DNA of 44,653 bases, taken from assembly GCF_008806325.1 (NCBI RefSeq), contig NZ_WACR01000014.1:1-44653 (forward strand). The letters run 5' to 3'. Position numbers and translations under genes: made by a program. The DNA is from Salibacter halophilus. Its GTDB lineage: Bacteria; Bacteroidota; Bacteroidia; Flavobacteriales_G; Salibacteraceae. The stretch's first letter is position 1, and each line of letters starts with the position of its first letter. The notes under the pieces are model-generated. The model was not told where the DNA came from. It did no database searches and saw only the letters and a list, made by a program, of their open reading frames with translations. Positions 1 through 17,317 of the stretch are shown here, in pieces.

Positions 1-25
1 TTCAAGACTAGTAGTGAAGTAATTA

Positions 26-52
26 AGAGGAGTGGATTGTCCACTCCTTTAG
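26..52 (+). terminator. Terminator of an upstream gene outside the window
   Basis: A 9-bp perfect stem (AGGAGTGGA, 3-nt loop, TCCACTCCT) extended by two weaker pairs and followed by TTT. It lies 45 nt upstream of the first gene and most likely ends transcription of a gene left of the window. Confidence 0.65.
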
Positions 53-97
53 TATAAACTTCACACTGATATTTGATACAAACAAAACTTTATTATC

Positions 98-1843
98 ATG
101 AATAAACTAATATCAAAAATAATAGCATTGGCTTTTGTGCTCTTTGCATTTCAAGCTAATGCTCAGTACTGCTTGCCAACTTACAGCAGTACCTCAGAGC
201 AAATCACTTCATTTGTCACAACTAATGGTTTGACGAATATTAATTATAACCCACCAAGTTATCCTTCAGGTGGGTTTGAAGACCTCACAGCAACACAAAG
301 CGTGAGTATTATTGTAGGAAATACTTGCAATTTCAATGCTTCTTACACTACACCATGGTCAAACACTTTTAGAATATGGGTGGATTGGGATAACAATGGT
401 GTTTATGATGATCCATCTGAGAGGGTTTACGATTTTGGTTCAACAACTCCAGCTTCAACAGGCTCATTTCCAGTGCCAATGACAACTACTCCTGGAACTT
501 ATAATATGCGAGTAAGGGCAGAGTATAGTTCTAGTAGTACTCCAGGTCCATGTACAGCCGAAACTTGGGGTTCTGCTGCGGATTTTTCACTCGTAGTTTT
601 GAGTCCACAAAATGTTGGAGTTGAAAGTATATTGAGTCCTGCAGCTCCGGATTGCTCTAATGATGACCTGTACATTCAGCTTGTTAATGACGGGAGTGAT
701 ACATTGTACAGTGCAGATATTGATTGGAGTATTAATGGAGTTCAACAAAATACAGTTCCATGGAGTGGTCAGTTGTCACCATTTGGAGATGTTTCAGACT
801 CAATTTTTGTTGGAAATGCATCTTCTTTAAATCAAGGTGAAGAGTTAAAAGTTTGGGCTTCAAACCCTAATGATACGACTGATCAATTCCCTTCAAATGA
901 TACAATGAGATATGTACATCCTGTTTATGGAGAGTTAAATGTTCCTGGTCAGTTTTTACTGTGTGAGAATGAAGTTGATACCATAAGCACGGGATTGACC
1001 TTTTCAGATCACACATGGAGTGATGGTAGCAAAAAGACATTCTTAGAAATTGTTTCGGCTGGACAATACGCTGTTACAACTGAGGATGTTTCTACTGGAT
1101 GTGTTCAGGAAGCTAGTTTCAATGTTGTTGAAGAGAGTCCTGTTAATTTACCAGATACAATTATAAAAGGTTGTGTTGTAGACGGAGGAGTTTCTCTCAC
1201 TGGAAATGTCCCGGGTGATTATGATTGGAGTACCGGTGCCAGTACAAGTTTTATTAATGTTACTGAATCTGGTACGTATTCAGTTTCCGTTACTGACCCA
1301 ACTGGAAAATGTACCTCAATTGACTCTGTTGAAATAGAAGTATTTGAAGACCCAGTCGCTGGTTTTATTGGTGATAGAGCATTTTTAACTATGACCTTTA
1401 CTGATACATCCCTTTATTCTGAGACTTACTATTGGGATTTTGGAGATGGATCTACTTCAACAAGTCAAAACCCTGTTCATATTTACTCTAGTGAAGGAGA
1501 ATATGATGTAATGCAGGCAGTTGATAACTTCTGTGGAACTGATACAATCTATCAGAGCTTTAATATTACTTCAACATCAGTTTATGAAAATGTGAATAAT
1601 GAAGAGGTTTCCATCTATCCAAACCCTACTTCTAGTAACCTCAATTTATACTCATCACAGTCCTTTGGTACATTAGATGTAACAATGATTGATATAACTG
1701 GAAAAGTAGTATACACAGAAACTAAAAATATACAGGCAGGTGATAGAATAATGTTTGATGTGTCAAACTTTTCTCCTGGGATATATACTTTAAAACTAGA
1801 TAACGCTACATCTTCTTCGAACTATAAGTTCATTGTTAAATAA
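98..1843 (+). CDS. T9SS-secreted adhesin-like protein with GEVED and PKD domains
   Basis: Predicted extracellular or cell-surface protein of 581 aa. Seen in order: signal peptide (1-22, ending ANA/Q); a GEVED-type domain (about 90-168) with its typical WVDWDNNG...DPSERVY core; a CARDB-like module (about 172-275); two related Ig-like modules (about 280-345 and 350-415), each with paired cysteines; a PKD domain (about 418-492, YYWDFGDGS); and a C-terminal sorting domain (about 503-581) starting SIYPNPTS and ending in a Lys-rich strand. The last domain directs export and anchoring through the type IX system. Residues after 172 are closely similar to the next two genes, so the three form a paralogous set with different N-termini. 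It probably binds a surface or glycan, but the ligand cannot be told. The start ATG is fixed by the signal peptide. A terminator follows it, so it is probably transcribed alone. Confidence 0.85.
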   Translation: MNKLISKIIALAFVLFAFQANAQYCLPTYSSTSEQITSFVTTNGLTNINYNPPSYPSGGFEDLTATQSVSIIVGNTCNFNASYTTPWSNTFRIWVDWDNNGVYDDPSERVYDFGSTTPASTGSFPVPMTTTPGTYNMRVRAEYSSSSTPGPCTAETWGSAADFSLVVLSPQNVGVESILSPAAPDCSNDDLYIQLVNDGSDTLYSADIDWSINGVQQNTVPWSGQLSPFGDVSDSIFVGNASSLNQGEELKVWASNPNDTTDQFPSNDTMRYVHPVYGELNVPGQFLLCENEVDTISTGLTFSDHTWSDGSKKTFLEIVSAGQYAVTTEDVSTGCVQEASFNVVEESPVNLPDTIIKGCVVDGGVSLTGNVPGDYDWSTGASTSFINVTESGTYSVSVTDPTGKCTSIDSVEIEVFEDPVAGFIGDRAFLTMTFTDTSLYSETYYWDFGDGSTSTSQNPVHIYSSEGEYDVMQAVDNFCGTDTIYQSFNITSTSVYENVNNEEVSIYPNPTSSNLNLYSSQSFGTLDVTMIDITGKVVYTETKNIQAGDRIMFDVSNFSPGIYTLKLDNATSSSNYKFIVK

Positions 1844-1862
1844 ATATCTTTTAACCATTTTG

Positions 1863-1898
1863 AAAAGCCATGCTACTTCTTTGTTGCATGGCTTTTTC
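1863..1898 (+). terminator. Rho-independent terminator
   Basis: AAAAGCCATGC and GCATGGCTTTT form an 11-bp stem around a 12-nt loop, running into TTTT. It ends the first adhesin gene and isolates it from the next paralogue. Confidence 0.85.
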
Positions 1899-2005
1899 AG
1901 TTATACCACTCTGTAAGTAAGTAAAAGAATTTAATTTTTTTTTGATCTGTTTAGTAAAAAATAATTAAATTGTTGCACTGTTAAATAAATAATAAATTGC
2001 TGACT

Positions 2006-3730
2006 ATGAAGAAATTTTTACTTTCAGTAAGTATGAGTGTCTTGGCCTTTTTCGGATACTCACAATCTAACATTGCCCCACAGGCAACGGCTAGCGCTAG
2101 TACTTGTAATACTGGCCCATGCTCAACTTTAAATGATCTCAATCTTGGAAATTGCGGTACACAGGAAATGTGGATTAGTACATCATCCCCACCAAGTTCT
2201 ACACCTGGAGTAGACTGGTTGAGGTTTGATTGGCCAACAGTTCGTGTTTTTGACGAATTTATTATACATCATGCTCAAAATAATGCCAGGTTCTTAACAG
2301 GCGGACTTATCCAATATTGGGATGGTTCGAATTGGGTTAATCATACAACTTTTTCGAATTTACCAATGCAATGTGTAAATACTGTTACATTTCCTGCTAT
2401 TGTATCTGACAGAGTTAGAATTACGGCATTTCAAATGACTGGATCAGGTCAAACTTCAAACCCTAACTTTCGAGAAATTGAAGTTATTGAAGCTATTCCA
2501 GATGATGCAGGTGTAACGATGATTGATACACCTAATGTACCTGATTGTTTGAATGAAAAGTTAGTTGTTAGGTTGAATAATCTGGGTTCTGATACTCTAT
2601 ATAATGCTTCGATTGATTGGAGTGTGAATGGTGTTCAACAAAATACTGTATTGTGGAGTGGACAAGTTGAAGAAGCTGGAGGAGTTTCTGATCCTGTATT
2701 TATTGGGAACTATAACTGGAACATGGGTGATACTATTAAGATTTGGACTAGTATGCCTAATGGTCAACCAGACTTACTTAGCAATAATGACACCTTAATA
2801 CATGTTATTCCTACTTATGATGAAATCGATCTCAATACTAATATTGTCCTATGTGAAGGATCTGAAGAGACTATAGATACAGAAGTATACTTTGGTGATC
2901 ATCAATGGAGTAATGGTAAAACATCGAGATTTATCAACATTGAAACTGCTGGTATTTATGATGTTACTGTTGAAGATGTTGCAACTGGATGCGTTCAGGA
3001 AGAGACATTCTTTGTTACAGAAGAAGCAGTAGTAAACTTACCTGATACTACAGTTATTGGTTGTGTTGAAGATGGAGGTGCTGTTTTAACCGGAAATGTA
3101 CCTGGATCTTATAGTTGGAGTACTGGCGCATCAACTAGTTTCCTTAATGTTACACAGTCAGGAATGTATTCCGTTTCAGTAACTGAACCAACAGGTAAAT
3201 GTACATCAAGCGATTCAGCTCAAGTTGACATTTTTGATAGTCCGGTTGCTAATTTTGGTGAAACTGTTAATTATATTACTGTAAGTTTTAATGACAGTTC
3301 AGAGTTCGCTTCTTCTTATTATTGGGATTTCGGTGACGGTTCTACCTCTACTGATCCAAATCCAGTTCATGTCTACGATTATCCAGGAGGTACTTTTGAT
3401 ATTACAATGGTTGTTTCTAATAACTGTGGAACTGATACTTTGACTAAGACAGTTACTGCTGATGAAACCACGGGTATTACTGATCTTAATGGTGAAGATG
3501 AAGTTGCAGTTTTCCCTAATCCAACCTCTAATAACTTCAGCATTAACTCAACTAGTAATAAGAACCTCACATCAGAGATTTATGATGTGACTGGTAAATT
3601 GACTAAAACTGTGAGATGGAAGTCTAGAGTTGATGTCAATATATCTGATCTTAACGGTGGTATTTACATCGTTAAAACTTATGACGATGACGGAATTGTT
3701 GATGTCACAAAATTATCTGTGACTAAATAG
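2006..3730 (+). CDS. T9SS-secreted protein with F5/8-type (discoidin-like) and PKD domains
   Basis: Second member of the paralogous set, 574 aa. The frame is open from a TTG at 1997, but I choose the ATG at 2006 because it gives a clean signal peptide (MKKFLLSVSMSVLAFFGYSQ). Residues about 22-165 resemble an F5/8 type C (discoidin) carbohydrate-binding fold: NIAPQATASAS near the start, a D-W-L-R-F-D-W strand, and a terminal strand NFREIEVIEA. From about 166 on it repeats the scaffold of its neighbours: CARDB-like, two Ig-like modules, PKD (WDFGDGS near 438) and a type A sorting domain (VAVFPNPTSN near 500 to the end). This suggests a surface adhesin or glycan binder sent out by T9SS. The scaffold is more diverged from the first and third genes than those are from each other. 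The substrate is unknown. Confidence 0.83.
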   Translation: MKKFLLSVSMSVLAFFGYSQSNIAPQATASASTCNTGPCSTLNDLNLGNCGTQEMWISTSSPPSSTPGVDWLRFDWPTVRVFDEFIIHHAQNNARFLTGGLIQYWDGSNWVNHTTFSNLPMQCVNTVTFPAIVSDRVRITAFQMTGSGQTSNPNFREIEVIEAIPDDAGVTMIDTPNVPDCLNEKLVVRLNNLGSDTLYNASIDWSVNGVQQNTVLWSGQVEEAGGVSDPVFIGNYNWNMGDTIKIWTSMPNGQPDLLSNNDTLIHVIPTYDEIDLNTNIVLCEGSEETIDTEVYFGDHQWSNGKTSRFINIETAGIYDVTVEDVATGCVQEETFFVTEEAVVNLPDTTVIGCVEDGGAVLTGNVPGSYSWSTGASTSFLNVTQSGMYSVSVTEPTGKCTSSDSAQVDIFDSPVANFGETVNYITVSFNDSSEFASSYYWDFGDGSTSTDPNPVHVYDYPGGTFDITMVVSNNCGTDTLTKTVTADETTGITDLNGEDEVAVFPNPTSNNFSINSTSNKNLTSEIYDVTGKLTKTVRWKSRVDVNISDLNGGIYIVKTYDDDGIVDVTKLSVTK

Positions 3731-3751
3731 AACTACTTTTATATCTATGTT

Positions 3752-3779
3752 AAAGGCGCACCATTGGTGCGCCTTTTTT
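3752..3779 (+). terminator. Rho-independent terminator
   Basis: AAAGGCGCACC, loop ATT, GGTGCGCCTTTTTT: an 8-bp GC-rich stem, extended by A-T pairs, with a six-T tail, about 20 nt after the stop codon. Confidence 0.92.
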
Positions 3780-3805
3780 GTTTTCTAATATTTGTGTTAA
3801 TTTTG
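3778..3805 (+). promoter_or_regulatory. Candidate promoter of the third adhesin gene
   Basis: TTG (3778-3780), a 17-nt spacer and TAATTTTG (3798-3805) fit the Bacteroidota consensus TTG-N17-23-TAnnTTTG. The TTG sits at the end of the preceding terminator's T-tract. The predicted leader is about 28 nt. Experimental start mapping is lacking. Confidence 0.5.
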
Positions 3806-3839
3806 AACGTATAATTAATACGTTGAAAATATATGTTTT

Positions 3840-5651
3840 ATGGTTTCAAAGTATAAATTAAGTTTTTTGTCATTTATTCTTTTATGTGTGTTTAGCGGAA
3901 GTTTAGTTTCCCAAAATACAGTCTCTACTATACCTCCATTAACAGAGAATAATGGGCAAGATGGGATTAAGTTTAACCTTAAGACCAATCAGGTTATACA
4001 AATAACCGCTTTTTTTTCAGCAATGTACTCAGGTACAAATGATATTGAAGTATGGATTTCTCCAACAGATACTTCCGGTACCCCAAATATTACAGCACCC
4101 GGTTGGACGCAAATAATGTCTCCACAGCCTGTCGTAACAGCTACAACAGGTGATGTTGATACTGCATACTTCAATTCTCCATATCTACTTCAACCAGGGA
4201 CCTATGGTGTTTGGATAGGGTCAGCCAGTAATACAGCAATAAGATATCACAATAATACCGCTGCACTTCCTTCATCGTTTACTGATGGAATTGTTACCAT
4301 AGAGACGGGTACAGGTATAGGTTTTGGTGGAGGATTGCCAACTCCTTCTTTTTCAGATAGAGAATTGGTAGGAGGTTTAATTTATCAACCTGCAGGTGAC
4401 GATGCCGGTATAGCTGAAATTTTAAGTCCTTCCGCTCCAGACTGCTCAAATGATAACTTATATGTTCAGCTTGTTAATGATGGGGGTGATACATTGACAA
4501 GTGCAGATATTGATTGGAGTGTTGATGGTATTCAACAAAATACTATTGTTTGGAATGGTCAACTAGCGCCTTTCGGAGGAACTTCAGACTCAATTTTTAT
4601 TGGTGATGTGTCATCTTTAAATCAAGGTGAAGAATTAAAGGTTTGGGCATCCAATCCTAATGGATCACAGGACCAATTACCAGGAAATGATACCATGAGG
4701 TTTGTACGCCCAAGCTATGGTGATTTAGATATTCCAGGACAATTTGTGTTGTGCCAGGGAGAGCGAGACACGATTAATACAGGTTTGAGCTTTTCAGATC
4801 ACATGTGGAGTGATGGTTCATCTAAGACATTTCTCGAGATAGAAACTGCAGGACAGTACTCTGTTACAACAGAAGATATTTCGACTGGATGTATTCAGGT
4901 AGCAGACTTTAATGTAATCGAGGAAACACCTGTAAACCTTGCTGATTCAGTAAATGGCTGTACAGTAGATGGCGGTACTACGGTTAGTGGAAATGTTCAG
5001 GGTAGTTACCAGTGGAGTACCGGAGCTAGTACAAGCTTCCTTAATATCACAGAAACAGGGTCTTATTGGGTGCAAGTAACAGACCCAACAGGGAAGTGTG
5101 TTTCGAGTGATACTGTTTACGCTACTATTTACGATGATCCAGAAGCTGGTTTTACTGGTGAAGTAAACTTTGTTACAGTTTCCTTTACTGATACCTCTAA
5201 TAACGGTACTGATATATTGTGGGAGTTTGGAGATGGATCATCCTCTTCAAATGAGAACCCTATCCATGTCTATCCAGGTGAAGAAGGAACTTACACAGTA
5301 ACGCAGGTTGTTTCTAATATCTGTGGATCTGATTCAATTACTCAAACATTTACTGTTAGCCCTGATCAGGTGAATAGTGTTGGAAACCTCAAAGAGATAA
5401 ACGATCTTAAGGTTTATCCTAACCCTGCTTCAAGCCAGGTGAATATAGCACTTGATTTAACAGAAAGGATGAATGTATCCATTGAAATAACGGATATGCA
5501 GGGGAGAGTTGTAATGATGGAGAACCTTGGAGATGTAAATGGAAAACAAGTATATAACTTCAATGCTTCAGATCTCAGTAGCGGTGTTTATATACTTAAC
5601 ATTCAGAACCGAAAAGGTTCTATAGGTCACCACACTCTTATCGTAGAATAA
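3840..5651 (+). CDS. T9SS-secreted adhesin-like protein with an unassigned N-terminal domain
   Basis: Third paralogue, 603 aa. Signal peptide 1-24 (ends LVSQ). Residues about 25-185 are a beta-rich, Cys-free region (TAFFSAMYSGTNDIEVWISPTD core) that I cannot assign to a named family; it replaces the GEVED or F5/8 domain of the two preceding genes. From about 187 (SPSAPDCSND) the protein is nearly collinear with the first gene: CARDB-like, two Ig-like modules, PKD (WEFGDGSSS near 460) and type A sorting domain (LKVYPNPASS near 524 to 603). The close match to the first gene, with the diverged second gene between them, suggests duplication or conversion within the locus. The product is expected at the cell surface via T9SS. 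It converges with the next gene, with a shared terminator between. Confidence 0.83.
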   Translation: MVSKYKLSFLSFILLCVFSGSLVSQNTVSTIPPLTENNGQDGIKFNLKTNQVIQITAFFSAMYSGTNDIEVWISPTDTSGTPNITAPGWTQIMSPQPVVTATTGDVDTAYFNSPYLLQPGTYGVWIGSASNTAIRYHNNTAALPSSFTDGIVTIETGTGIGFGGGLPTPSFSDRELVGGLIYQPAGDDAGIAEILSPSAPDCSNDNLYVQLVNDGGDTLTSADIDWSVDGIQQNTIVWNGQLAPFGGTSDSIFIGDVSSLNQGEELKVWASNPNGSQDQLPGNDTMRFVRPSYGDLDIPGQFVLCQGERDTINTGLSFSDHMWSDGSSKTFLEIETAGQYSVTTEDISTGCIQVADFNVIEETPVNLADSVNGCTVDGGTTVSGNVQGSYQWSTGASTSFLNITETGSYWVQVTDPTGKCVSSDTVYATIYDDPEAGFTGEVNFVTVSFTDTSNNGTDILWEFGDGSSSSNENPIHVYPGEEGTYTVTQVVSNICGSDSITQTFTVSPDQVNSVGNLKEINDLKVYPNPASSQVNIALDLTERMNVSIEITDMQGRVVMMENLGDVNGKQVYNFNASDLSSGVYILNIQNRKGSIGHHTLIVE

Positions 5652-5670
5652 TACCAAGTGGTTATCAATA

Positions 5671-5698
5671 AAAAAAGGGAGCAGCTGCTCCCTTTTTT
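5671..5698. terminator. Bidirectional terminator, perfect 28-nt palindrome
   Basis: A6-GGGAGCAG followed directly by CTGCTCCC-T6. It is symmetric, so it gives a U-tailed hairpin on both strands. It lies between two convergent genes (stops at 5651 and 5718). Confidence 0.93.
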
Positions 5699-5717
5699 AT
5701 TTGAAATATTTTAATCT

Positions 5718-6710
5718 TTATTCCTCAATCAAGTTAGGAGTAACTTTTAACTTATTGAGAATTTGGTGAGCCACCTCAAGCGCTTTGTAACCATCTTCGA
5801 GGGTGACCTCTGGTTGCTGGTTCTGACCAATAGCTTTGGCAAAACTTCTCAACTCCTCTTTAATGGCGTTATGAGGCTCAACCTTTGGCTGATTGAATTC
5901 GATTTCCTTAGGTTTTTTGCCGTTGCCAGGATCAATTGTGACAGCTAGAGGATCAGGTTCACCCTCTACGGTGTGAAGCTTGACAATTTCAACATCTTTA
6001 TCGAGGAAATCAACTGAGATGTAAGCATCGCGTTGGAAAATACGTGTTTTACGCATGTTCTTCATCGAAATACGACTCGCTGTAAGATTGGCCACACATC
6101 CGTTATCAAATTCGATACGAGCATTGCAGATGTCAGGATTGTCACTGACTACAGCAACCCCACTTGCGCTAATTTTTTTGATCCCAGAATTGACCATGCT
6201 CAATACAATATCGAGGTCGTGAATCATAAGATCCAAAATAACCGATACATCAGTTCCGCGAGGGTTAAATTGAGCTAGACGATGAGTTTCAATAAACATG
6301 GGTTGTGTAATGGAAGAGCGTGCGGTTTTAAATGCCGGATTGAAGCGCTCAACGTGACCAACCTGTATTTTTACATTGGCCTCGTGATTGAGAGCAATTA
6401 ACTTCTTGGCTTCTTCTACTGTATTAGTAACCGGCTTTTCAATGAAAATATGCTTTCCGTTGCGAATTGCCATATTAGCACAATCGAAATGTGACAGTGT
6501 TGGCGTTACAATATCAACAACATCAACTTTTTCGATTAATCCTTCAATAGTGGAAAAAGCTTCAACACCAAATTCCTTCTCTGCATTTTGGGCATTATCA
6601 GCGTTAGGATCGTAAAAACCAACAAGTTCAAACTCATCAGTCAACTCTTTTAACAGCTTGAGGTGGATTTTTCCCAAATGTCCGGCACCTAATACTCCTA
6701 CTTTTAGCAT
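5718..6710 (-). CDS. Gfo/Idh/MocA-family NAD(P)-dependent oxidoreductase
   Basis: Cytoplasmic 330-aa oxidoreductase, usual length for the family. Seen: Rossmann dinucleotide-binding motif GAGHLG (8-13), the EKP motif (91-93) whose Lys is catalytic in this family, GHVERFNPAF (118-127) and a conserved HDLD (164-167) in the C-terminal half. Family members oxidise or reduce a sugar or inositol carbon, and the closest functional analogues by motif are UDP-sugar 3-dehydrogenases. The substrate cannot be fixed from sequence. It stands alone with its own promoter (6726-6755) and a predicted leader of only about 10 nt. One GGTCAGADCC copy (5819-5828) lies in its C-terminal part, encoding GQN. Confidence 0.85.
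   Translation of the reverse strand: MLKVGVLGAGHLGKIHLKLLKELTDEFELVGFYDPNADNAQNAEKEFGVEAFSTIEGLIEKVDVVDIVTPTLSHFDCANMAIRNGKHIFIEKPVTNTVEEAKKLIALNHEANVKIQVGHVERFNPAFKTARSSITQPMFIETHRLAQFNPRGTDVSVILDLMIHDLDIVLSMVNSGIKKISASGVAVVSDNPDICNARIEFDNGCVANLTASRISMKNMRKTRIFQRDAYISVDFLDKDVEIVKLHTVEGEPDPLAVTIDPGNGKKPKEIEFNQPKVEPHNAIKEELRSFAKAIGQNQQPEVTLEDGYKALEVAHQILNKLKVTPNLIEE
5819..5828 (-). repeat. GGTCAGADCC motif, copy 1
   Basis: Reads GGTCAGAACC on the minus strand, inside the oxidoreductase gene, encoding GQN. Confidence 0.8.
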
Positions 6711-6725
6711 TACTTTCGTTTTCTA

Positions 6726-6755
6726 CAAAAATAGCGCTGACTTTTGTTGGCTCAA
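6726..6755 (-). promoter_or_regulatory. Consensus promoter of the oxidoreductase gene
   Basis: On the minus strand: TTG, exactly 19 nt, TATTTTTG, a full match to TTG-N19-TAnnTTTG. Transcription should start about 10 nt before the ATG at 6710, leaving almost no leader. Confidence 0.75.
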
Positions 6756-6811
6756 TTGTTTTTGTTTATTGTTTTTCAATCCACAGTGTTAATTGTTTAA
6801 ATCAGATCCAA

Positions 6812-7477
6812 ATGTTGAGGGAAGATTCGTTGAAATTCAAAGGCGCCAGGAAGCGACTCATCGATAAGGTGGGGAAGTTGATGAAGGATCACGGTGTTGA
6901 AGATAATCGTGTTTTAACAGCTATGATGGAGGTTCCAAGGCACATCTTTTTTGATAGCGTCTTTGATCAAAAGTTCGCTTATGAAAATACTGCTTTCAAA
7001 ATTGGAGCTGGTCAAACAATTTCACAACCGTTTACAGTAGCTATACAGAGTGCTTTGTTAGAAGTGAAAAAGCGTGATAAAATTCTCGAAATTGGTACAG
7101 GATCTGGTTATCAGGCTGCGGTTTTATTAGCTATGGGCGCTAAAGTATTTACAGTTGAAAGACAAAAACTACTCTATGATAAAGCTAAAGATGTGCTTCC
7201 AGCTCTTGGTTATCGACCACGCATGTTTTACGGTGATGGATTTAAGGGACTCCCCTCTTACGCTCCTTTTGATGGAGTAATTGTAACTTGTGGCGCTCCA
7301 TATGTTCCAGAAGCGTTAATCGATCAATTAAAGCCGGGAGGAAAAGCTGTAATTCCGGTTGGAGATGGAGATACACAAAAAATGCTCCGTATCATCAAGA
7401 ATAAAGATGGTTCCACAAAAACAGAGGATTATGGCGATTTTAGCTTTGTACCCATGCTTCAAAATACAGCTAAATAA
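6812..7477 (+). CDS. pcm: Protein-L-isoaspartate O-methyltransferase
   Basis: 221-aa SAM-dependent enzyme that methylates isoaspartyl residues in aged proteins, starting their conversion back to aspartate; cytosolic. Seen: VPRHIFF (41-47), GQTISQP (67-73), typical of the family, and the SAM-binding motif LEIGTGSGYQ (92-101), followed by the acidic strand VFTVER. Length is normal. It is divergent from the oxidoreductase gene with 101 nt between them, and I see no clear promoter on this side. The outer-membrane protein gene follows after 65 nt, with a GGTCAGADCC motif in the gap, so the two may be separately expressed. Confidence 0.95.
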   Translation: MLREDSLKFKGARKRLIDKVGKLMKDHGVEDNRVLTAMMEVPRHIFFDSVFDQKFAYENTAFKIGAGQTISQPFTVAIQSALLEVKKRDKILEIGTGSGYQAAVLLAMGAKVFTVERQKLLYDKAKDVLPALGYRPRMFYGDGFKGLPSYAPFDGVIVTCGAPYVPEALIDQLKPGGKAVIPVGDGDTQKMLRIIKNKDGSTKTEDYGDFSFVPMLQNTAK

Positions 7478-7497
7478 AAAATGTTAAAATAAATTTC

Positions 7498-7507
7498 GGT
7501 CAGAGCC
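7498..7507 (+). repeat. GGTCAGADCC motif, copy 2 (intergenic)
   Basis: GGTCAGAGCC, 21 nt after the pcm stop codon. It is one of two copies outside genes, so not explained by protein coding. Confidence 0.85.
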
Positions 7508-7542
7508 GTTAACAACTCAAACTTTCATTCTTAAAACCTGTC

Positions 7543-8316
7543 ATGAAGAAGAAAATATCAATTGCACTATTACTCCTTTCTCTTATTGGACTCGCTGCTT
7601 TTGCACAGGAGAAAAACCAGGAAGAAATCAATTATAAGTATCAACCAAAAGACTGGGGCGTTAGCTTCAATGTATCAGGGCTGATTGATAATATCAGCCT
7701 GCAGAGCATGGAAGATATCAATGGTAATCCTGCTATCAGAGTAAGAAAGTTTATTGATGACAGGTGGGCGATATCGGCCGGTTTTGGGTTGAACTCGTTC
7801 AATATTGAGAATTCTAGAGTTGACAGTGTTGGCGCTGCAGAGAATCAATTTGATTCAACTTACAAACGAACAGATTTCTTTTTTGCTCCCGGTATTGAAT
7901 ATCACTTCAAAGGAACGAACAGACTTGACCCATATGCCGGTTTAGGTGTTACAATAGGAACGGTAGGTAGTGAAGATATTGAGGTTAACGATCAAATGAT
8001 CGATACAACCGGTACTGCCTCTTTTCAAAGGACGTACAACAATCCGGGCGGATTTACATTTGGTGCAAACCTAACTATTGGATTTAACTATTTTATTGCC
8101 AAGAGACTCTCTTTAGGTGCTGAGTACCAATGGGGCTTTATCGCGAGTAGAACTGGCGGTGATTACGAAGTCGTGACGATTAACGACCCTATTAGCGGAG
8201 CCACAACTACTTCGCGTACCACAGGATCTGACCGTGTAACGAATAATGGTTTTAGAATGCGATCCACGATGGGGGTTACCCTGAGCTATTTTTTTAATTT
8301 AGAGCGGGAAAAATAA
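7543..8316 (+). CDS. Outer-membrane beta-barrel protein
   Basis: 257-aa predicted outer-membrane porin-like protein. A signal peptide (1-21, ending AFA/Q) is followed by alternating amphipathic strands rich in aromatics and Gly (WAISAGFGLNSF, FFFAPGIEYHF, DPYAGLGVTIG, GFTFGANLTIGFNYF) and a C-terminal strand ending in F (MGVTLSYFF), with a few trailing charged residues. This is the pattern of the OMP_b-brl group of small barrels common in Bacteroidota. Specific cargo or function cannot be deduced. It is followed after 41 nt by the small 4-TM protein gene. A GGATCTGACC motif at 8224-8233 encodes GSD in the last long loop. Confidence 0.75.
   Translation: MKKKISIALLLLSLIGLAAFAQEKNQEEINYKYQPKDWGVSFNVSGLIDNISLQSMEDINGNPAIRVRKFIDDRWAISAGFGLNSFNIENSRVDSVGAAENQFDSTYKRTDFFFAPGIEYHFKGTNRLDPYAGLGVTIGTVGSEDIEVNDQMIDTTGTASFQRTYNNPGGFTFGANLTIGFNYFIAKRLSLGAEYQWGFIASRTGGDYEVVTINDPISGATTTSRTTGSDRVTNNGFRMRSTMGVTLSYFFNLEREK
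8224..8233 (-). repeat. GGTCAGADCC motif, copy 3
   Basis: GGTCAGATCC on the minus strand, in the beta-barrel gene; on the gene strand it encodes GSD. Confidence 0.8.
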
Positions 8317-9808: not shown

Positions 9809-12259
9809 ATGAAAAAGTTCACGTTACTCACAATCAGTATTTTATTAAGCTCATCATTTCTTTTTTCTCAGTCATTATGGAAGCACCGTTCAGGACCAAA
9901 TTTCCTTCCTAATGATACAGTGTTGTCTATCGACTCCAAAGGAGACACACTAATGTTAGGTACTATCGATGGTCTTATCATAAAAACTCCCCAACAACAG
10001 ACTCTCCTCACAACTGCCGATGGACTAGCTTCTGACACCATAGATAAAATTGAAGTTGCTGATGACGGAAGATTCATTGCATATCATTTTGGATCATCAC
10101 TCATCTCATATTATGATGGTACGAGCTTTAGTGTTATAGAAACTGAAAACTCATTTTCAGGTCCAGCTTTTGATTTAGAAAGTGATGCCGATAATGTTTT
10201 TTATGTTTCTTCTTTTAATGAATTATTCAAATTGTCAGGAGATTCGCTTATATCTGTAGGCCCAGCTTTCTATACTTTTAGAGGGATAAACTCTTTAGCA
10301 AGGGGAGGAGATAATGTATACAGCTTTTACAATGATACCCTATTTGAGTATAAAAATGGAAGTTTAATAAGTCAATATACAAAACAGGGAATTGAAAAAC
10401 TGGATGATGGAGATAGGGTTTTAGTTCAAACGACTGTTGGAATAGATGATGACTTTTACAGGTTTGACTCCCAAAATGGTTTTGTGGATATAGACCCAAA
10501 TGACAATTATTCTATAGGAACTCAGTATCAAACTATCATCTATTCAGATTCATCAATTGTTTTAGTTGAAAGAGGTGGTGCTTTGGAGCAGTTAGATGAT
10601 TCCCAAAAAACTCTTTCATCCTTGAATACTGGTACGCTGGTATCTCCATCAAATATGACTAAATGGCTAGATCAATACATAATTATAAGTAGTGAAAACG
10701 GATATTTAGAAAGCTATGATGAAAGGTTGACTTTAGAAGAGGAAAAAATAAGTTCTATTAACAATATGAACTTAAGACTAAATCCTAATGGTAGTATGGG
10801 TGCAATAAGTGATTATAGAAATGGGTATGATCAATTTAAAGGTAAGGCAGTTTTTTATAGTGCCACTAACTGGATGTCTGGAGAAGTTAGTTCTACTCAA
10901 TCTATTCGGTTTGCAGGTGATTTGCATCCTGGGCTTGACGAAGGGCAGAACATTGAGTCAATGCGGACTAACTCAGGACCTTATTCAAATAATTATGATG
11001 TATTTAAAAACCATAAAGCGTGGAAGGTAACTAGTGCTCAAATCGATAGCCATATTGTAAATTATTCAGATCCAGGGTATGTAATACCGGCCGGTATAAA
11101 TAGCTGGCCAGCTCACGGAGCAGTCGCAAGAGGACAGGCAACCTGTATGGCTCCTTTTGTTGATGTTAATCAAAATGGTATTTACGAACCTGAACAGGGA
11201 GAGTATCCTCAAATAAGAGGGGATGAAGCGCTGTATGCAGTTTTTAATGATAATTATCTACGAAGTACTATAGGCGAGCAACCAATGGGAGTTGAAGGAC
11301 ATGTAATGTTGTACAGTTATGAGTCTAACGATCCTGAGTTGAATAATACTGTATTTCTCAATTACAGGATTGTAAACAGAGGGGCTAAGGATTATGTTAA
11401 TTTTAGATTTGGTCACAATATGGACTCAAATTTAGGAAGCGCAGCTGATGATTATACTGGTTGTGATACTAACAATAACTTCTTTTATTTCTACAATGGA
11501 GACAATTATGATGAAGGAATTTACGGATTTGATAGTTTACCAGCTGCATATGGTGTTGCCTACTTAAATCATAATTTAACCTCTTACAGGAGTTATTCTT
11601 TCGGTACTAACTGGAGGGGAGCCCCTTTTAATGCGGTAGAATATCACCATCTATTAAATGGACGCTATAAAAATGGCCAGGAACCTGAAGATTTACAGGG
11701 TCAGCCAACTTCGTTTATGTATTCAGGAGATCCGGTTACGAATACAGGCTGGACAGAATTGAATCAAGGTAATTCTCCATCTACTAAAAGAGGTGTGGGA
11801 GCCATTTCAATACCTCAATTCAACAGCGGTGATACTGTAGAAATCGACATGGCATTGACTTTAGCTGAAAATGATGGAACTGTAGATAACTTTGAAGTGG
11901 TTGGAGATTTGCGTTCTCAGGTTCAGGATATTCAGCAGTGGTACAACAACCAACAATTTGATCCCTGGGAGTATGATTGCAATGCCTACAACTCAGTCCC
12001 TGATCACGATCTGACCGAAAACAGCTCATTTAAATTGTATCCTAATCCAACTGAGAGCAGGATTAATATTGAATTCCAGGAAGAGTTATCTCAGCCAGCA
12101 CGTATAGAAATATACAATGCAGTTGGAGCCCTGGTCAGATCCGAATATCGAACAGGTAAAAGAGTTCAGGTTCAATTAAGTTCATTAAATTCGGGGTATT
12201 ATTTAATTCGAGTTAAAACGGAATCAATAGTAGAATCAAAACCCCTAATCGTAAGATGA
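9809..12259 (+). CDS. Large T9SS-secreted protein, first of three tandem paralogues
   Basis: 816 aa, predicted to be secreted. Signal peptide 1-20 (LLSSSFLFSQ). Residues about 22-340 hold repeated short strands (GDTLMLGTIDGLIIKT, TTADGLASDT) that resemble the two-component-regulator beta-propeller repeats. The middle region contains the family's most conserved block, SWPAHG (from 432), then APFVDVNQNGIYEPEQGEYPQIRGDEALYAVFND, where DVNQNG looks like a calcium-binding loop. The C-terminus is a type A sorting domain (FKLYPNPTES near 740 to 816). I recognise the architecture from other Bacteroidota, but no function is established. The last four bases overlap the next start (ATGA), so the three paralogues form one translationally coupled operon. 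Confidence 0.85.
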   Translation: MKKFTLLTISILLSSSFLFSQSLWKHRSGPNFLPNDTVLSIDSKGDTLMLGTIDGLIIKTPQQQTLLTTADGLASDTIDKIEVADDGRFIAYHFGSSLISYYDGTSFSVIETENSFSGPAFDLESDADNVFYVSSFNELFKLSGDSLISVGPAFYTFRGINSLARGGDNVYSFYNDTLFEYKNGSLISQYTKQGIEKLDDGDRVLVQTTVGIDDDFYRFDSQNGFVDIDPNDNYSIGTQYQTIIYSDSSIVLVERGGALEQLDDSQKTLSSLNTGTLVSPSNMTKWLDQYIIISSENGYLESYDERLTLEEEKISSINNMNLRLNPNGSMGAISDYRNGYDQFKGKAVFYSATNWMSGEVSSTQSIRFAGDLHPGLDEGQNIESMRTNSGPYSNNYDVFKNHKAWKVTSAQIDSHIVNYSDPGYVIPAGINSWPAHGAVARGQATCMAPFVDVNQNGIYEPEQGEYPQIRGDEALYAVFNDNYLRSTIGEQPMGVEGHVMLYSYESNDPELNNTVFLNYRIVNRGAKDYVNFRFGHNMDSNLGSAADDYTGCDTNNNFFYFYNGDNYDEGIYGFDSLPAAYGVAYLNHNLTSYRSYSFGTNWRGAPFNAVEYHHLLNGRYKNGQEPEDLQGQPTSFMYSGDPVTNTGWTELNQGNSPSTKRGVGAISIPQFNSGDTVEIDMALTLAENDGTVDNFEVVGDLRSQVQDIQQWYNNQQFDPWEYDCNAYNSVPDHDLTENSSFKLYPNPTESRINIEFQEELSQPARIEIYNAVGALVRSEYRTGKRVQVQLSSLNSGYYLIRVKTESIVESKPLIVR
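12133..12142 (+). repeat. GGTCAGADCC motif, copy 7
   Basis: GGTCAGATCC, in the sorting-domain region of the first tandem paralogue, encoding VRS. It is the only exact copy in the 7.5-kb operon. The aligned site in the third paralogue (near 17190) reads GGTTAGATCA. Confidence 0.75.
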
Positions 12260-14796
12260 TCAAGCAACTTGTAACTATAATCGGATTGTTTTTTTGTGTA
12301 ACTTCTATAATAGCTCAAAGCGGATGGAGGGTTTATCAGGCGCCCAATGATTTACCCGATTCCACTGTTGTTCAATACTCTGTCCAGGGAGATAGCCTTA
12401 TTATTACAGATGAATTGGGGTTTTATGTGCAAACAAGAGATACACGAGAGTTTTTCAATAGTAATGATGGGTATAAAAATGAATCCTTCAAGAGAGTTAC
12501 AGCTAACACCAATAATGAATTATGTGTTCTGTATGACCATGCTGATTCTCTCCACATTTATGAGAATCATCAATTAAAAAGAAAAGTAGCAATTGGTGGC
12601 TGGTGGAGTAAATGTACTGATGATAATATCACAATAGTTCCGGGTCTCGATGGCTATTTCTATGCCAATTGTGACGGCTATGTTTACGTTCCAAATGGTG
12701 ATGTCCTTGACTTAATATCTGGTAGCCGCAGAATGAGAAATATGATACAGGGACCTGATAACTCAGTTTATGCTATCAAAAATGATGATTCAGTATTTTA
12801 CAAGATTCGTAATGGGAATATTATTGACACAACAGAAGTGCCAGATAGTCTAGTGAATAATAGAATATACTATTGGACTTCTAATAATGAGCAAATTATC
12901 TTTCAAAGTCGGTTCAATCATCTTTATTCTTTTAAACCAGGGGCTAACCCTGAAATATCTATATCTAGAAAAACTGATAAAGGAATATACAGGTTTGCTA
13001 TAGATGATCAAAATAGAATTTGGTTTACCGATGATTTTATAATCAATAGGTTGTCACTGGCAGATACATCAAAAGAAGTAGAGCAAATATCAGGGTTTAA
13101 AATGTCTCATAACTTAAGTAATACACTCTTTACAAAATCATTTGGAGATGAAGTTTTAGCTGTGTTTGATGGTGGTTATATGACAGCAACAACTGATGTT
13201 AAGTTTCATGCGATGGATTACTTAACCCTAAATGATTTTAATATTCCCGTTTACCCTGAAGGGTCTTTTGGAACAAGCTATTATTTACCTGATGATTTCA
13301 GAAAAATCACTTACAAAGATAAGAGCATTCTGTATTCAGATAAATTATGGGTCTCGGGCGAGAGTAGGTCTACAGGTATTGATTACTTTTCAGGTTCTGA
13401 TGTTATAGGGTATAACTACAACAATGATGATTATTTTATCGGGTTTAACCCGGGGCCAAATCAAACAGACTTAAATCACTATAGAAATTACAGAACTTTC
13501 AAAGTGACCAGAGCTCAAATTGATGATCATATTGCCAATTATAATTCATCATCTTATGAAGCTCCTGAGGATATAGTTGAATGGCCTGCACATGGCAATC
13601 CAAATGCAGGTGAGTCAACCTGTATAGCTCCGTTTATTGATGTGAACAATGATGAAATTTATGATCCAAATGATGGTGATTATCCGCAGATTAGAGGTGA
13701 TGAAGCTGTTTATACGGTGTTTAATGATTTGAGATATTCTCCTATGCGACCAATAGATCCGGTTGGGATTGAAGGTCACTTAATGATATACGGTTATGAC
13801 AATCCAGACCCAGTTCTGTCAAACACGTTTTTTGTTAACTATCGACTGATAAATATTGGTTTTAATAGTTATGAAAATTTATTGACAGGGATTAATAATA
13901 GAAGTGGAGTTGGAGCTTTTACAGATGATTTTATCGGTTGCGATACATTGAACAACTTCTATTATTATTACAACAATGATGATTTTGATGATACAGCCCT
14001 TGATCAGTTAGGTTTTGGAAGTAATCCACCAGCATTAGGTATAATACCATTAAACAAGAAACTTAACTCATTTGTAAGTTGGGATGGAATTGCTAACACT
14101 CAAACAGAATTACCTTACAATAAAGAGTTTTCAGTAAACTTTTTAAAAGGGAAGAAAAATCATGGAGCTGCCTTCTATGCTAATAGCTACAGAGCAGTAA
14201 ACCCAAGTCAGGCTTACGGAGATACTACTAAATTTATTTTCACTGGAGACCCCGTTCAAGATACAGGGTGGACTCATTATCGCGATAGTACTTTTACTTT
14301 CATGAATAACTCATATCCTCTTTCTTATGGGAGTGTAGGCGGAATCAACCACGGAGATTTCAACCCCGGAGATACAGTTGAAATCGATTACGCAATTACA
14401 ATTGCCGAGAATACTGGAAATACGCTTTACAGTGAAGTCGCGGATTTGCGTTCTCAGGTTCTGGATATTCAAAACTGGTACAATAATTATCAGTTTGATG
14501 ACTGGAAACACAGTTGTATGCTTGTTAATTCTACTATTCCAGGTAGATCAATCGATGATGAATCAGCATTTAAAGTCTACCCTAATCCTAATGCAGGGGT
14601 TTTTACCTTAGAAATCAAATCATTAAAAAGAGAGGCTAGTTTTCAATTATTTAATTCTTTGGGAACGTTAATTAAGGATGGAGCTATAGGAAATATAAGA
14701 ACAGACTTCAATTTCAGCTCACTTTCTTCTGGTGTTTATCTTCTTAAGGTAGATAACGGTTCTCAATCATCTACACAACCTATTCTAATCAAATGA
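12256..14796 (+). CDS. Large T9SS-secreted protein, second of three tandem paralogues
   Basis: 846 aa, the same plan as its neighbours: signal peptide (1-21, ending IIAQ); a propeller-like N-terminal half with Asp-Asn-rich strands; the block WPAHG at 443, followed by APFIDVNNDEIYDPNDGDYPQIRGDEAVYTVFND, in which the loop reads DVNNDE rather than DVNQNG; and a type A sorting domain (AFKVYPNPNAG near 771 to 846). The segment just before its sorting domain is unlike that of the first and third copies (see the 50-nt patch). The ATG overlaps the preceding stop by 4 nt and the next gene begins 1 nt after its TGA. Probably co-secreted with the other two; function unknown. Confidence 0.85.
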   Translation: MIKQLVTIIGLFFCVTSIIAQSGWRVYQAPNDLPDSTVVQYSVQGDSLIITDELGFYVQTRDTREFFNSNDGYKNESFKRVTANTNNELCVLYDHADSLHIYENHQLKRKVAIGGWWSKCTDDNITIVPGLDGYFYANCDGYVYVPNGDVLDLISGSRRMRNMIQGPDNSVYAIKNDDSVFYKIRNGNIIDTTEVPDSLVNNRIYYWTSNNEQIIFQSRFNHLYSFKPGANPEISISRKTDKGIYRFAIDDQNRIWFTDDFIINRLSLADTSKEVEQISGFKMSHNLSNTLFTKSFGDEVLAVFDGGYMTATTDVKFHAMDYLTLNDFNIPVYPEGSFGTSYYLPDDFRKITYKDKSILYSDKLWVSGESRSTGIDYFSGSDVIGYNYNNDDYFIGFNPGPNQTDLNHYRNYRTFKVTRAQIDDHIANYNSSSYEAPEDIVEWPAHGNPNAGESTCIAPFIDVNNDEIYDPNDGDYPQIRGDEAVYTVFNDLRYSPMRPIDPVGIEGHLMIYGYDNPDPVLSNTFFVNYRLINIGFNSYENLLTGINNRSGVGAFTDDFIGCDTLNNFYYYYNNDDFDDTALDQLGFGSNPPALGIIPLNKKLNSFVSWDGIANTQTELPYNKEFSVNFLKGKKNHGAAFYANSYRAVNPSQAYGDTTKFIFTGDPVQDTGWTHYRDSTFTFMNNSYPLSYGSVGGINHGDFNPGDTVEIDYAITIAENTGNTLYSEVADLRSQVLDIQNWYNNYQFDDWKHSCMLVNSTIPGRSIDDESAFKVYPNPNAGVFTLEIKSLKREASFQLFNSLGTLIKDGAIGNIRTDFNFSSLSSGVYLLKVDNGSQSSTQPILIK

Positions 14797-14797
14797 T

Positions 14798-17317
14798 ATG
14801 CGCTTTATAATCATACTTACATTCATACTATCTTCTGTAATACTCACTGCTCAAAATGGCTGGAGAGTTTTTGAATATCCTGATGAAATGCCTGGAGACA
14901 TAGTAAGAGACTTTTCAATTTGTGGAGATAGCCTTTTAATAGCAACTAATCAAGGTTTTATTATTCAAACTCCCAACAATCGGGAATTTTATGATACAGC
15001 AGATGGACTCAAACAGAATTACATAAATCAGATATGTGCTAAAAGAGATGGAGATATAGCTCTTATTTATAACAGTTTGGACTCTATTTATATTTTAAAG
15101 CCAAATGGAGATCAAATTGGAGTTGCCTTTAAAAACAAATGCCTATCCAATTACGCATATTTTTCCCTTGATGACCGGGATAATATTTATGTGAACTGTA
15201 AAAATGGAGTTTATCTATTGAATGAAGATGGCCTTGAGTTAGTATTCAATGAAGGAAATCTATATTCCTATTCATCAGGTCCTGATGATGCTATTTGGGG
15301 GTTTGAAGATAAAAAACTGTACAAATACAAAAATGGTGAGCAAGATGTTATTATTGGCGTGAATGATGGTTCAACGAGTAAGATTAGAAGAATAGCTGTC
15401 AATAAAAATAGAGTTGTATATACAAATGATAAAGGTGAACTTCATTCATATACACCAAATAATGGGTTTGAGTACATACGCGATGGGTTTTCAATTATAT
15501 CTAACATATTCCTTGATTCAAAAGACAGGGTCTGGTACATTAAGTTTGGAACCAGTCAAAATCCGGCTGAACCCAAATTAACTTTCTTTGATATAAAGAA
15601 TCCTTCAACAGAACAATCAATTTCAAAATATCAAATGGATTTGGACTACTATCATAATGAATCCATGTTTGAATGGAGAAACCAAATAGTTAGAAGTATT
15701 AGAGGAGGCTATATGATGGCCAACCTCGACTCAGAATTTGAAACCATAAAGAAATACGATCTCGGTGATTTTTCAGTACCGGTATTACCAGATGGCACCA
15801 TAGGTACAATGTCTCGCAATGAACAAGGCAATCAACATTTTTATAAAAATGGCGGATTACCATACAATTTATCAATTGCAGCAAAAGGTACCAACACTGC
15901 AAATCAGCAAGAACTCGTTTCAGGAGGGTTTGGCTCTGAGGTACGACTACGTCTTGATAGTACAAATTTTAAATCTGGCGCTTTTCAAAATGATTCAAAC
16001 TCCAAAAGAAATTTCATCACCTGGAAGGTGACACGTGCTCAAATTGAAGATCACATTCAGAACCACAATAGTGCAGGTTACGAAACACCAACAGATATAG
16101 AAAGTTGGCCAGCACACGGATTGGTTAACGAAGGTGAGTCGCAATGTTTAGCTCCATTCATTGATGTTGATAATAATGGAATCTATGAGCCGGATAAGGG
16201 AGATTATCCTCAAATAAGAGGAGATCAGGCTGTTTACACAATATTCAATGATCTTAGAAAGTCAAATCAAAGACCCATTGACCCTGTTGGTTTGGAGTGT
16301 CACCTCATGATTTATGGATACGACTCAGTGAATAACGCTGCTTTATCAAATACTTATTTCATTTCATACACAATTGTCAACATAGGAAATAACACTTATG
16401 AAGATTTCAAAACGAGTCAGTTTATAGATGGCGGAATTGGTGGTTTCAATGATGACTTAATGGGAGTTGATACAGTTGATCAGTATATCTACTCTGTCAA
16501 TCATGACGATTTTGATGAAGGGCAGGATTTTTCAGATGGATTTGGTCAAAATCCACCGGCTACTGCACTGGTTTCTTTAAGTCATGATTATACCTCGTTT
16601 ACTGTTACAGATGGAGATACAGCATCAAAATTGAGCTACCCATACAATCCACAAGAAAAAGCTAACTACATGGACGGGTATAAAGCTAATCGAAGCTCAT
16701 ATTTTACCAATAGCTTTAGGGCAACGAATGCTTCTCAGGCATCTGGGGTACCAACAAAATTTGTCTTTAGTGGAAGTCCGTATCTGAGTAACGGCTGGAC
16801 GCCCATTTCTGACGTAACCATATCAAATGAAAACCATTTGCGTCATAATGCCGGAATTGCATCATCTTATCATGGTACATTTAAACCGGGAGATACAATC
16901 TACAAGGATTTTGCATTTACAGTTGCTGAAAACTCTTCAACGGGATTATATCACGAAATGAATGATCTCGATAATCAGGTACAAACGATTAAACAATGGT
17001 TCACACAAAAACAATTTGAAAGCTGGAAGAGAGGATGCATCGCCTATAACTCTGTCCCTGATCGCGATCTGACCGAAAACAGCTCGTTTAAATTGTATCC
17101 TAATCCGGCTGAGAACTATGTGAAGGTTGAATTTAGTGTTGACCAAAAGAGTACTTCTCGAGTTGAGGTTTTCAATACACTTGGAGCAATGGTTAGATCA
17201 CAAAAAGTTAGCGATAACCGCGAAATAATTCAGCTCGATAATATGCCAGCCGGAATCTACCTCATTCGCGTTTCAGGAAGTGAAGTAAATGAAACAAAAA
17301 GGTTGATTGTAAATTGA
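14798..17317 (+). CDS. Large T9SS-secreted protein, third of three tandem paralogues
   Basis: 839 aa. Signal peptide 1-18 (SSVILTAQ); propeller-like N-terminal half; WPAHG at 437, followed by APFIDVDNNGIYEPDKGDYPQIRGDQAVYTIFND with a canonical D-x-D-x-N-G loop; type A sorting domain from about 762 to the end. It starts 1 nt after the second paralogue's stop. The linker before the sorting domain is almost identical at DNA level to that of the first paralogue, although the rest has diverged, which suggests gene conversion. It converges on hldD with only 10 nt between the two stops and no visible terminator. Confidence 0.85.
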   Translation: MRFIIILTFILSSVILTAQNGWRVFEYPDEMPGDIVRDFSICGDSLLIATNQGFIIQTPNNREFYDTADGLKQNYINQICAKRDGDIALIYNSLDSIYILKPNGDQIGVAFKNKCLSNYAYFSLDDRDNIYVNCKNGVYLLNEDGLELVFNEGNLYSYSSGPDDAIWGFEDKKLYKYKNGEQDVIIGVNDGSTSKIRRIAVNKNRVVYTNDKGELHSYTPNNGFEYIRDGFSIISNIFLDSKDRVWYIKFGTSQNPAEPKLTFFDIKNPSTEQSISKYQMDLDYYHNESMFEWRNQIVRSIRGGYMMANLDSEFETIKKYDLGDFSVPVLPDGTIGTMSRNEQGNQHFYKNGGLPYNLSIAAKGTNTANQQELVSGGFGSEVRLRLDSTNFKSGAFQNDSNSKRNFITWKVTRAQIEDHIQNHNSAGYETPTDIESWPAHGLVNEGESQCLAPFIDVDNNGIYEPDKGDYPQIRGDQAVYTIFNDLRKSNQRPIDPVGLECHLMIYGYDSVNNAALSNTYFISYTIVNIGNNTYEDFKTSQFIDGGIGGFNDDLMGVDTVDQYIYSVNHDDFDEGQDFSDGFGQNPPATALVSLSHDYTSFTVTDGDTASKLSYPYNPQEKANYMDGYKANRSSYFTNSFRATNASQASGVPTKFVFSGSPYLSNGWTPISDVTISNENHLRHNAGIASSYHGTFKPGDTIYKDFAFTVAENSSTGLYHEMNDLDNQVQTIKQWFTQKQFESWKRGCIAYNSVPDRDLTENSSFKLYPNPAENYVKVEFSVDQKSTSRVEVFNTLGAMVRSQKVSDNREIIQLDNMPAGIYLIRVSGSEVNETKRLIVN

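Follow-up and report, generated by a model that had tools for sequence, protein, structure and literature searches.

The DNA analysed in the current study (the window, 44,653 bp) is the entire contig C14 (NZ_WACR01000014.1) of Salibacter halophilus, the genome of which is assembled as 3.12 Mb in 32 contigs. At its left end lie three genes, here termed A, B and C, which run in tandem, all in one direction, and specify predicted surface proteins of the type IX secretion system (T9SS). A preliminary description of this DNA had proposed that the three adjoining proteins are built on one scaffold and differ in the N-terminal domain, and this was confirmed, as the scaffolds are 47–56% identical while the N-terminal domains (heads) show no profile similarity to each other. 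The genes and their parts are:

98–1843, + strand: gene A, T9SS type A surface protein, 581 aa (open reading frame call, Pfam and TIGR04183)
164–601, + strand: head A, GEVED domain (Pfam PF20009; start placed by eye after the signal peptide)
602–1582, + strand: stalk of A, comprising a first beta domain (CARDB of the preliminary description), Ig1, Ig2 and PKD (domain comparison, PKD by Pfam; inner limits approximate)
1613–1840, + strand: sorting tail of A (TIGR04183/PF18962 profile match)
2006–3730, + strand: gene B, 574 aa counted from the probable ATG at 2006 (a TTG at 1997 is possible)
2063–2494, + strand: head B, F5/8 type C-like domain (Pfam matches below cut-off; similarity to a Schleiferia thermophila head)
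2495–3457, + strand: stalk of B (domain comparison; limits approximate)
3509–3727, + strand: sorting tail of B (profile match)
3840–5651, + strand: gene C, 603 aa (open reading frame call, Pfam)
3912–4391, + strand: head C, a recurrent, putatively jelly-roll-like domain with no Pfam family (searches and model)
4392–5357, + strand: stalk of C (domain comparison and model; limits approximate)
5412–5648, + strand: sorting tail of C (profile match)

The scaffolds are 56% identical between A and C, 49% between A and B, and 47% between B and C. When the C scaffold was used as query, A and B were matched at E-values of 5e-153 and 6e-116, and the match ranked next in this genome was at 4e-24, with 28% identity over 295 query residues (150 of 191 candidates scored); identity is higher in some shorter stretches elsewhere, where it rises to 46% across some 50 residues. 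The three scaffolds thus match one another far better than they match the other T9SS proteins found in this genome. The A and C scaffolds had been described as the closest pair, which is correct for the overall figure but is limited to the first stalk domain (70%) and Ig1 (72%), as Ig2 is most similar between A and B (72%) and the PKD domains are evenly related, at 44–48% for every pair. The common block was originally drawn as CARDB, two Ig domains, PKD and sorting tail. The stalk domains are indeed shared, with PKD above its curated cut-off in all three proteins, but the sorting tails are only 24–31% identical, which restricts the shared unit to the stalk and leaves out the tail. The name CARDB for the first stalk domain is unconfirmed, since there was no Pfam match to CARDB in A, B or C at E-values up to 1, nor for seven members of the group at E-values up to 10 among the 25 of 26 families shown.

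The sorting tails of A, B and C score 42.0, 41.8 and 47.8 bits against TIGR04183 (cut-off 23), the N-termini resemble signal peptides by eye, and SprA is encoded on contig C8 (2521 bits, cut-off 200). At least 128 type A tails in the genome exceed the cut-off; 150 of 175 candidates were scored, and there were 129 matches. Because of the sorting tails and SprA, and by general knowledge of how T9SS cargo behaves, the three proteins are predicted to be exported and anchored at the cell surface.

The heads had been characterized as GEVED, F5/8-like and unassigned, and the profile searches agree. Head A passes the cut-off of the GEVED family PF20009 (59.8 bits, cut-off 24.4). Head B scores 26.3 bits against DUF7402 (cut-off 27) and 21.3 bits against F5_F8_type_C_2 (cut-off 27.8), and its Schleiferia relative gives 26.5 bits against PF00754 (cut-off 28.2); as all of these discoidin-type scores fall below the cut-offs, head B is described as F5/8-like only. 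No Pfam family matched head C. In the Pfam comparison of head relatives, the L073 reference spanned the tail end rather than the head. Pairwise hhalign comparison of the three head families returned probabilities of 0.1, 0.2 and 0.4%, and A, B and C appear to bear heads of three families between which no relationship is detected.

Head B shares 73% identity with a head in Schleiferia thermophila and 61% with one in Acidiluteibacter, compared to 32% for the adjoining stalk domain in both cases, and in this alignment the head is more constrained than its neighbouring stalk domain. At four-fold degenerate third codon positions the Salibacter and Schleiferia heads agree at 13 of 44 sites, which is near random, so the likeness reflects conservation, and the idea that head B came recently from Schleiferia by horizontal transfer was rejected. 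The Acidiluteibacter row (L112) carries C-type and B-type heads on adjoining genes. Recurrence of head C was judged by a single-pass search, which found it in seven other proteins; this was preferred because an iterated profile drifted into stalk regions of genome G003. The alignment used for modelling head C consisted of six sequences, four of them taken from the iterated search.

Rows in other genomes were collected by their similarity to the scaffold of the window, so the pair counts that follow are not a census. Neighbouring pairs were taken from window positions 1–8000, L031, L062–L074 and L077–L152 if both genes lay on the same strand less than 1200 bp apart, a first stalk domain was detected in each, and the N-termini were readable; others were dropped. 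This gave 31 pairs, two of which include a headless gene, leaving 29 with two heads. The heads lack phmmer similarity in 21 of these 29, with scaffold identities of 30–85% (median 54%), although the 21 pairs come from 13 loci and are not independent, the aligned scaffold is shorter than 170 residues in two (L069 and L110), and one head is only 58 residues long (L090). Such figures bear upon the explanation that the rows are ordinary tandem duplicates which accreted different N-terminal domains by chance and without functional meaning. T9SS proteins commonly vary in domain make-up, and one nearby trio in the window looks like a plain duplicate family, but the prevalence of differing heads among neighbours, the recurrence of the same head types on scaffolds of several genomes and the strong conservation of head B make accretion by chance distinctly improbable. 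The trio in question (nt 9809–17317; 816, 846 and 839 aa) also consists of T9SS proteins, which are 31–35% identical from end to end, have no break between head and stalk, and are recognised by Pfam in the sorting tail only; on these alignments it is a picture of plain tandem duplicates, in contrast to A, B and C.

A maximum likelihood tree was built from the scaffolds of 26 hand-picked genes, excluding 5'-open and more distant genes. Labelled by locus, it requires 12 changes for 12 labels, and none of 300 shuffles was as low. Labelled by head type (25 rows, labels assigned by hand), it requires 16 changes against a shuffled mean of 17.2, with 68 of 300 shuffles as low, a test weakened by the several head labels that occur only once. 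Restricted to the 15 rows whose heads recur (GEVED, head C type and the type labelled X), the test gives 8 changes against a mean of 7.4, with 268 of 300 shuffles as low. Two of the rows (L068 and L069) belong to one genome, L074 has no head label, and two long branches meet in the tree. In this sample, scaffolds group by locus and head type carries no detectable signal of scaffold phylogeny. The junction between head and stalk looks sharp, as 22 of 26 scaffolds fit a loose pattern of four residues close to where they begin (counted without a chance control).

Exact repeats at the DNA level bear on the likeness of the stalks. In genome G027 (L078/L159; contig C2, nt 36513–51404) four tandem T9SS genes form a DNA mosaic. 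An exact tract of 323 bp close to the 3' end is common to genes 1 (GEVED head) and 2 (X head), one of 464 bp that begins about 0.9–1 kb into the genes is common to genes 2 and 4 (GEVED head), and one of 60 bp to genes 3 and 4, the latter pair being 81–91% alike over the rear; genes 1 and 4, which both carry GEVED heads, are only 44–77% alike throughout. In G003, a single-contig genome, exact tracts of up to 146 bp are shared by genes bearing C-type and MAM heads. As these tracts join genes with different heads, they point to gene conversion of stalks, and in G027 the sequence pattern indicates conversion between genes whose heads differ. The G003 row itself (L064 and L065; contig C1, approximately nt 1083977–1101705) specifies five proteins in tandem, each about 1120 aa long, and the order of their heads (C-type, MAM, X, MAM, X) suggests that a two-gene unit may have been duplicated. 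A right-handed beta helix is inserted in the stalk of these proteins, according to Pfam scans of two members.

A clear case of differing heads on orthologous scaffolds was found in two congeners, G001 and G002. In each, a headed gene lies within 14 bp downstream of a headless scaffold gene. The headless orthologues are 73% identical, and the scaffolds of the second-position genes are 79% identical over 343 aa (in G001 the contig ends within the gene), while the heads of the latter are unrelated, the one in G001 being about 450 residues long and that in G002 186. Each matches heads borne by other scaffolds, for G001 a head in G031 (L071; E = 6e-103), for G002 heads at the Bacteroidales loci L094 (E = 2e-50) and L096. 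A comparison of this kind had been suggested in the preliminary description, and its outcome here speaks for exchange. In this one case, relatives do not keep each head fixed, and the arrangement calls for replacement of the head, unless one paralogue was lost and another converted. The headless proteins encoded at L062:7571–8905 and L063:323–1660 have a signal-peptide-like start that runs straight into the stalk, and are conserved between two congeners; their stalk domains are 78–91% identical, their sorting tails just 33%.

Much the same pattern could arise without any exchange of heads, if the row were ancient, its heads fixed, and the stalks alone moved and were kept alike by gene conversion (concerted evolution). 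The conversion tracts lie in stalks, as this explanation would have it, and it is also in keeping with a head B conserved across genera, a recurrent head C type, and the occurrence in G003 of like heads on sister scaffolds. It does not readily accommodate the second-position genes of G001 and G002, with their different heads on a 79% identical scaffold, nor the headless orthologues, nor the variation in head combinations between rows, and is considered doubtful, though far from negligible.

We favour the interpretation that the row encodes T9SS-exported, surface-anchored proteins resembling fibrillar adhesins, each having a sorting tail, a stalk of Ig/PKD type, and one exchangeable N-terminal tip; the probability of this reading is put at about 0.62. 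Each protein would be exported by the T9SS and its stalk anchored at the surface by the C-terminal sorting tail. The tips would be ligand-binding domains (for glycans or polymers) held away from the cell by the stalk, and recombination within the homologous stalks, aided by their tandem arrangement, would both homogenise the stalks and join new tips to them.

A number of observations weigh against this interpretation. With regard to the separateness of the heads, shuffle z values for single heads are raised for A–C (3.9) and B–C (4.4), although not for A–B (0.3), and the blastp match between B and C reached into the heads. Extra conservation of the head is not general: head C is just modestly more conserved between genomes (37–44%) than its stalk domain (29–34%), and head A (30–42%) shows no difference from its first stalk domain (29–44%). 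Exchange within the window would have to be old, as the longest exact DNA between any two of A, B and C is 21 bp, and recent gene conversion in this row was rejected for the same reason. A clean replacement of the head between orthologues was found once only, and six more stretches, together with the earlier rows, yielded no other cross-locus scaffold pair at 58% or above. G001, G002 and G027 are metagenome assemblies, so chimaeras are possible. Related heads are present in 8 of the 29 two-headed pairs, and in G003 the two MAM-head genes are sisters in the tree, as are the two X-head genes, and exchange of heads is thus not a feature of every row. The headless members demonstrate that the scaffold can exist without a tip. 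Lastly, the model of head C is of modest quality (predicted local distance difference test score, pLDDT, 66.7; predicted template modelling score, pTM, 0.68), and Foldseek returned no match to it at an E-value of 0.001, the best being 3e-3. Its structural likenesses include PHR domains (Z 9.6), a lectin-like domain of Cwp84 (Z 9.4) and CBM6/32/35 (Z about 5–7), but also phage baseplate proteins (Z 8.8 and 8.1), capsid and other jelly-roll proteins (Z 5–9), and according to the warning issued by the tool a Z of 7–8 is the usual best value even where there is no clear match. The model is compatible with a jelly-roll binding domain but is not proof of one. Ligand binding by the heads is putative, and head C is lectin- or jelly-roll-like according to a modest model only.

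The CBM-like fold matches, along with the F5/8-like head, would also suit proteins that are not adhesins but capture polymers for foraging, with stalks that bind carbohydrate and supply a degradation system. The searches matched no degradative domain in A, B or C, the peptidase-family rows in the search output span the sorting tail only, and the neighbouring genes that could be identified (among them Gfo/Idh/MocA and pcm, by eye) are unrelated, which renders a foraging role unlikely.

Each gene of the row had been credited with its own terminator. Stable hairpins with a T-run follow all three, as assessed by fold z, but a terminator consensus scan caught only that of B among the three, and its total of 5 is near the shuffled mean of 3.9. 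These hairpins, and two further features that precede gene A, are:

2–22, + strand: probable C-terminus of an upstream T9SS gene, SRLVVK-stop (frame 2 translation), cut by the contig end
26–48, + strand: fourth hairpin, after SRLVVK-stop (fold z -5.2)
1860–1900, + strand: terminator-like hairpin 3' of A (fold z -5.67)
3752–3776, + strand: terminator-like hairpin 3' of B (fold z -5.0; also in the consensus scan)
5671–5698, + strand: terminator-like hairpin 3' of C (fold z -5.36)

Among 21 inverted pairs in nt 1–5800 none is switch-like, the longest being 34 nt at 79% and lying within the coding sequences of A and B (no chance control was applied), and phase-variable inversion was rejected on this basis. 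The view of the region as a modular receptor-binding locus with alternative heads is retained in part: there is one stalk with different heads, and head exchange is seen in relatives, but receptor binding is putative, and the separate terminators and the lack of a switch-like inverted pair do not suit alternation in the sense of one head at a time, and several tips would be on display together. Upstream DNA that might serve as a conserved left homology arm was not seen, as the upstream alignments of six rows are alike hardly beyond the first codons. A phage origin was also rejected, a tblastn search with A (A alone, not B or C) giving no match in a phage collection at an E-value of 1e-5.

Since the window is a whole contig and opens with SRLVVK-stop and a hairpin, the row probably starts before the contig end, with at least one similar gene ahead of A. 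A junction between contigs C12 and C14 was considered and rejected: apart from itself, the sequence of nt 1–97 matched the genome only twice and weakly (19 and 23 bp), and the row on C12 has a different stalk, made of SprB repeats. Contig C12 likewise opens inside a T9SS row (L031; G000:C12:1–12000, with genes at 1–1083 and 1297–3681 on the minus strand), in which the heads differ and one is glycine-rich, so that two contig ends of this assembly (C12 and C14) fall within rows of T9SS proteins.

Modular T9SS adhesins are known from Porphyromonas gingivalis, where, in the portion of the literature consulted (PMC5266723), Kgp, RgpA and HagA are described as T9SS cargo with combinatorial adhesin modules that recombine, and with repeats left unresolved by automated assembly. 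Their modules are CAD/DUF2436 adhesin domains, repeated, and in the gingipains placed after a catalytic domain, whereas here a single N-terminal tip varies on an Ig/PKD stalk in a row of tandem genes. In fibrillar adhesins, as far as the sections available of PMC8286594 and PMC10952558 describe them, an adhesive domain is combined with a stalk and a C-terminal anchor, and one adhesive domain pairs with different stalks, including shuffling of the CshA/B NR2 domain. Stalk and anchor are present in A, B and C, and the adhesive role of the heads is putative; the published comparisons, in those sections, are made across proteins and phyla, while the exchange described here is between tandem paralogues and between congeners. 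The top Foldseek match of a full-length model of C is the grappling-hook protein GhpA of Aureispira (PDB 9flw; E = 2.6e-11), but the model is poor (pTM 0.29), the TM-score is just 0.15, and a generic string of beta domains is being matched, as human Ig-chain and complement proteins come next. Kinship with GhpA was rejected, as a search with the scaffold profile gave 22 sequence matches and 9flw is not one of them. Shuffling of tips and stalks is a known principle, and the present variant combines conversion of the stalks with exchange of tips between stalk genes that lie in tandem. Titles and abstract openings, a partial coverage that makes for a weak negative, showed no publication that deals with tandem T9SS stalk genes exchanging their heads.

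The rows may represent a widespread plug-in platform of Bacteroidota, in which tips, including the jelly-roll-like family of head C, are swapped as cassettes at a sharp junction and gene conversion keeps the stalks recombinogenic. This is offered tentatively, as a possibility somewhat short of even odds; if true, a lineage could re-equip its surface and leave the anchor unchanged. The rows offer a concrete and testable case of Bacteroidota diversifying their outermost proteins, in which tips and stalks appear to evolve separately. They tell which tips interchange, point out head families worth assaying, one of which (head C) has no Pfam model, and provide in the stalk a possible natural display scaffold. 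For the cell, the arrangement looks like a means to vary what its surface sticks to.

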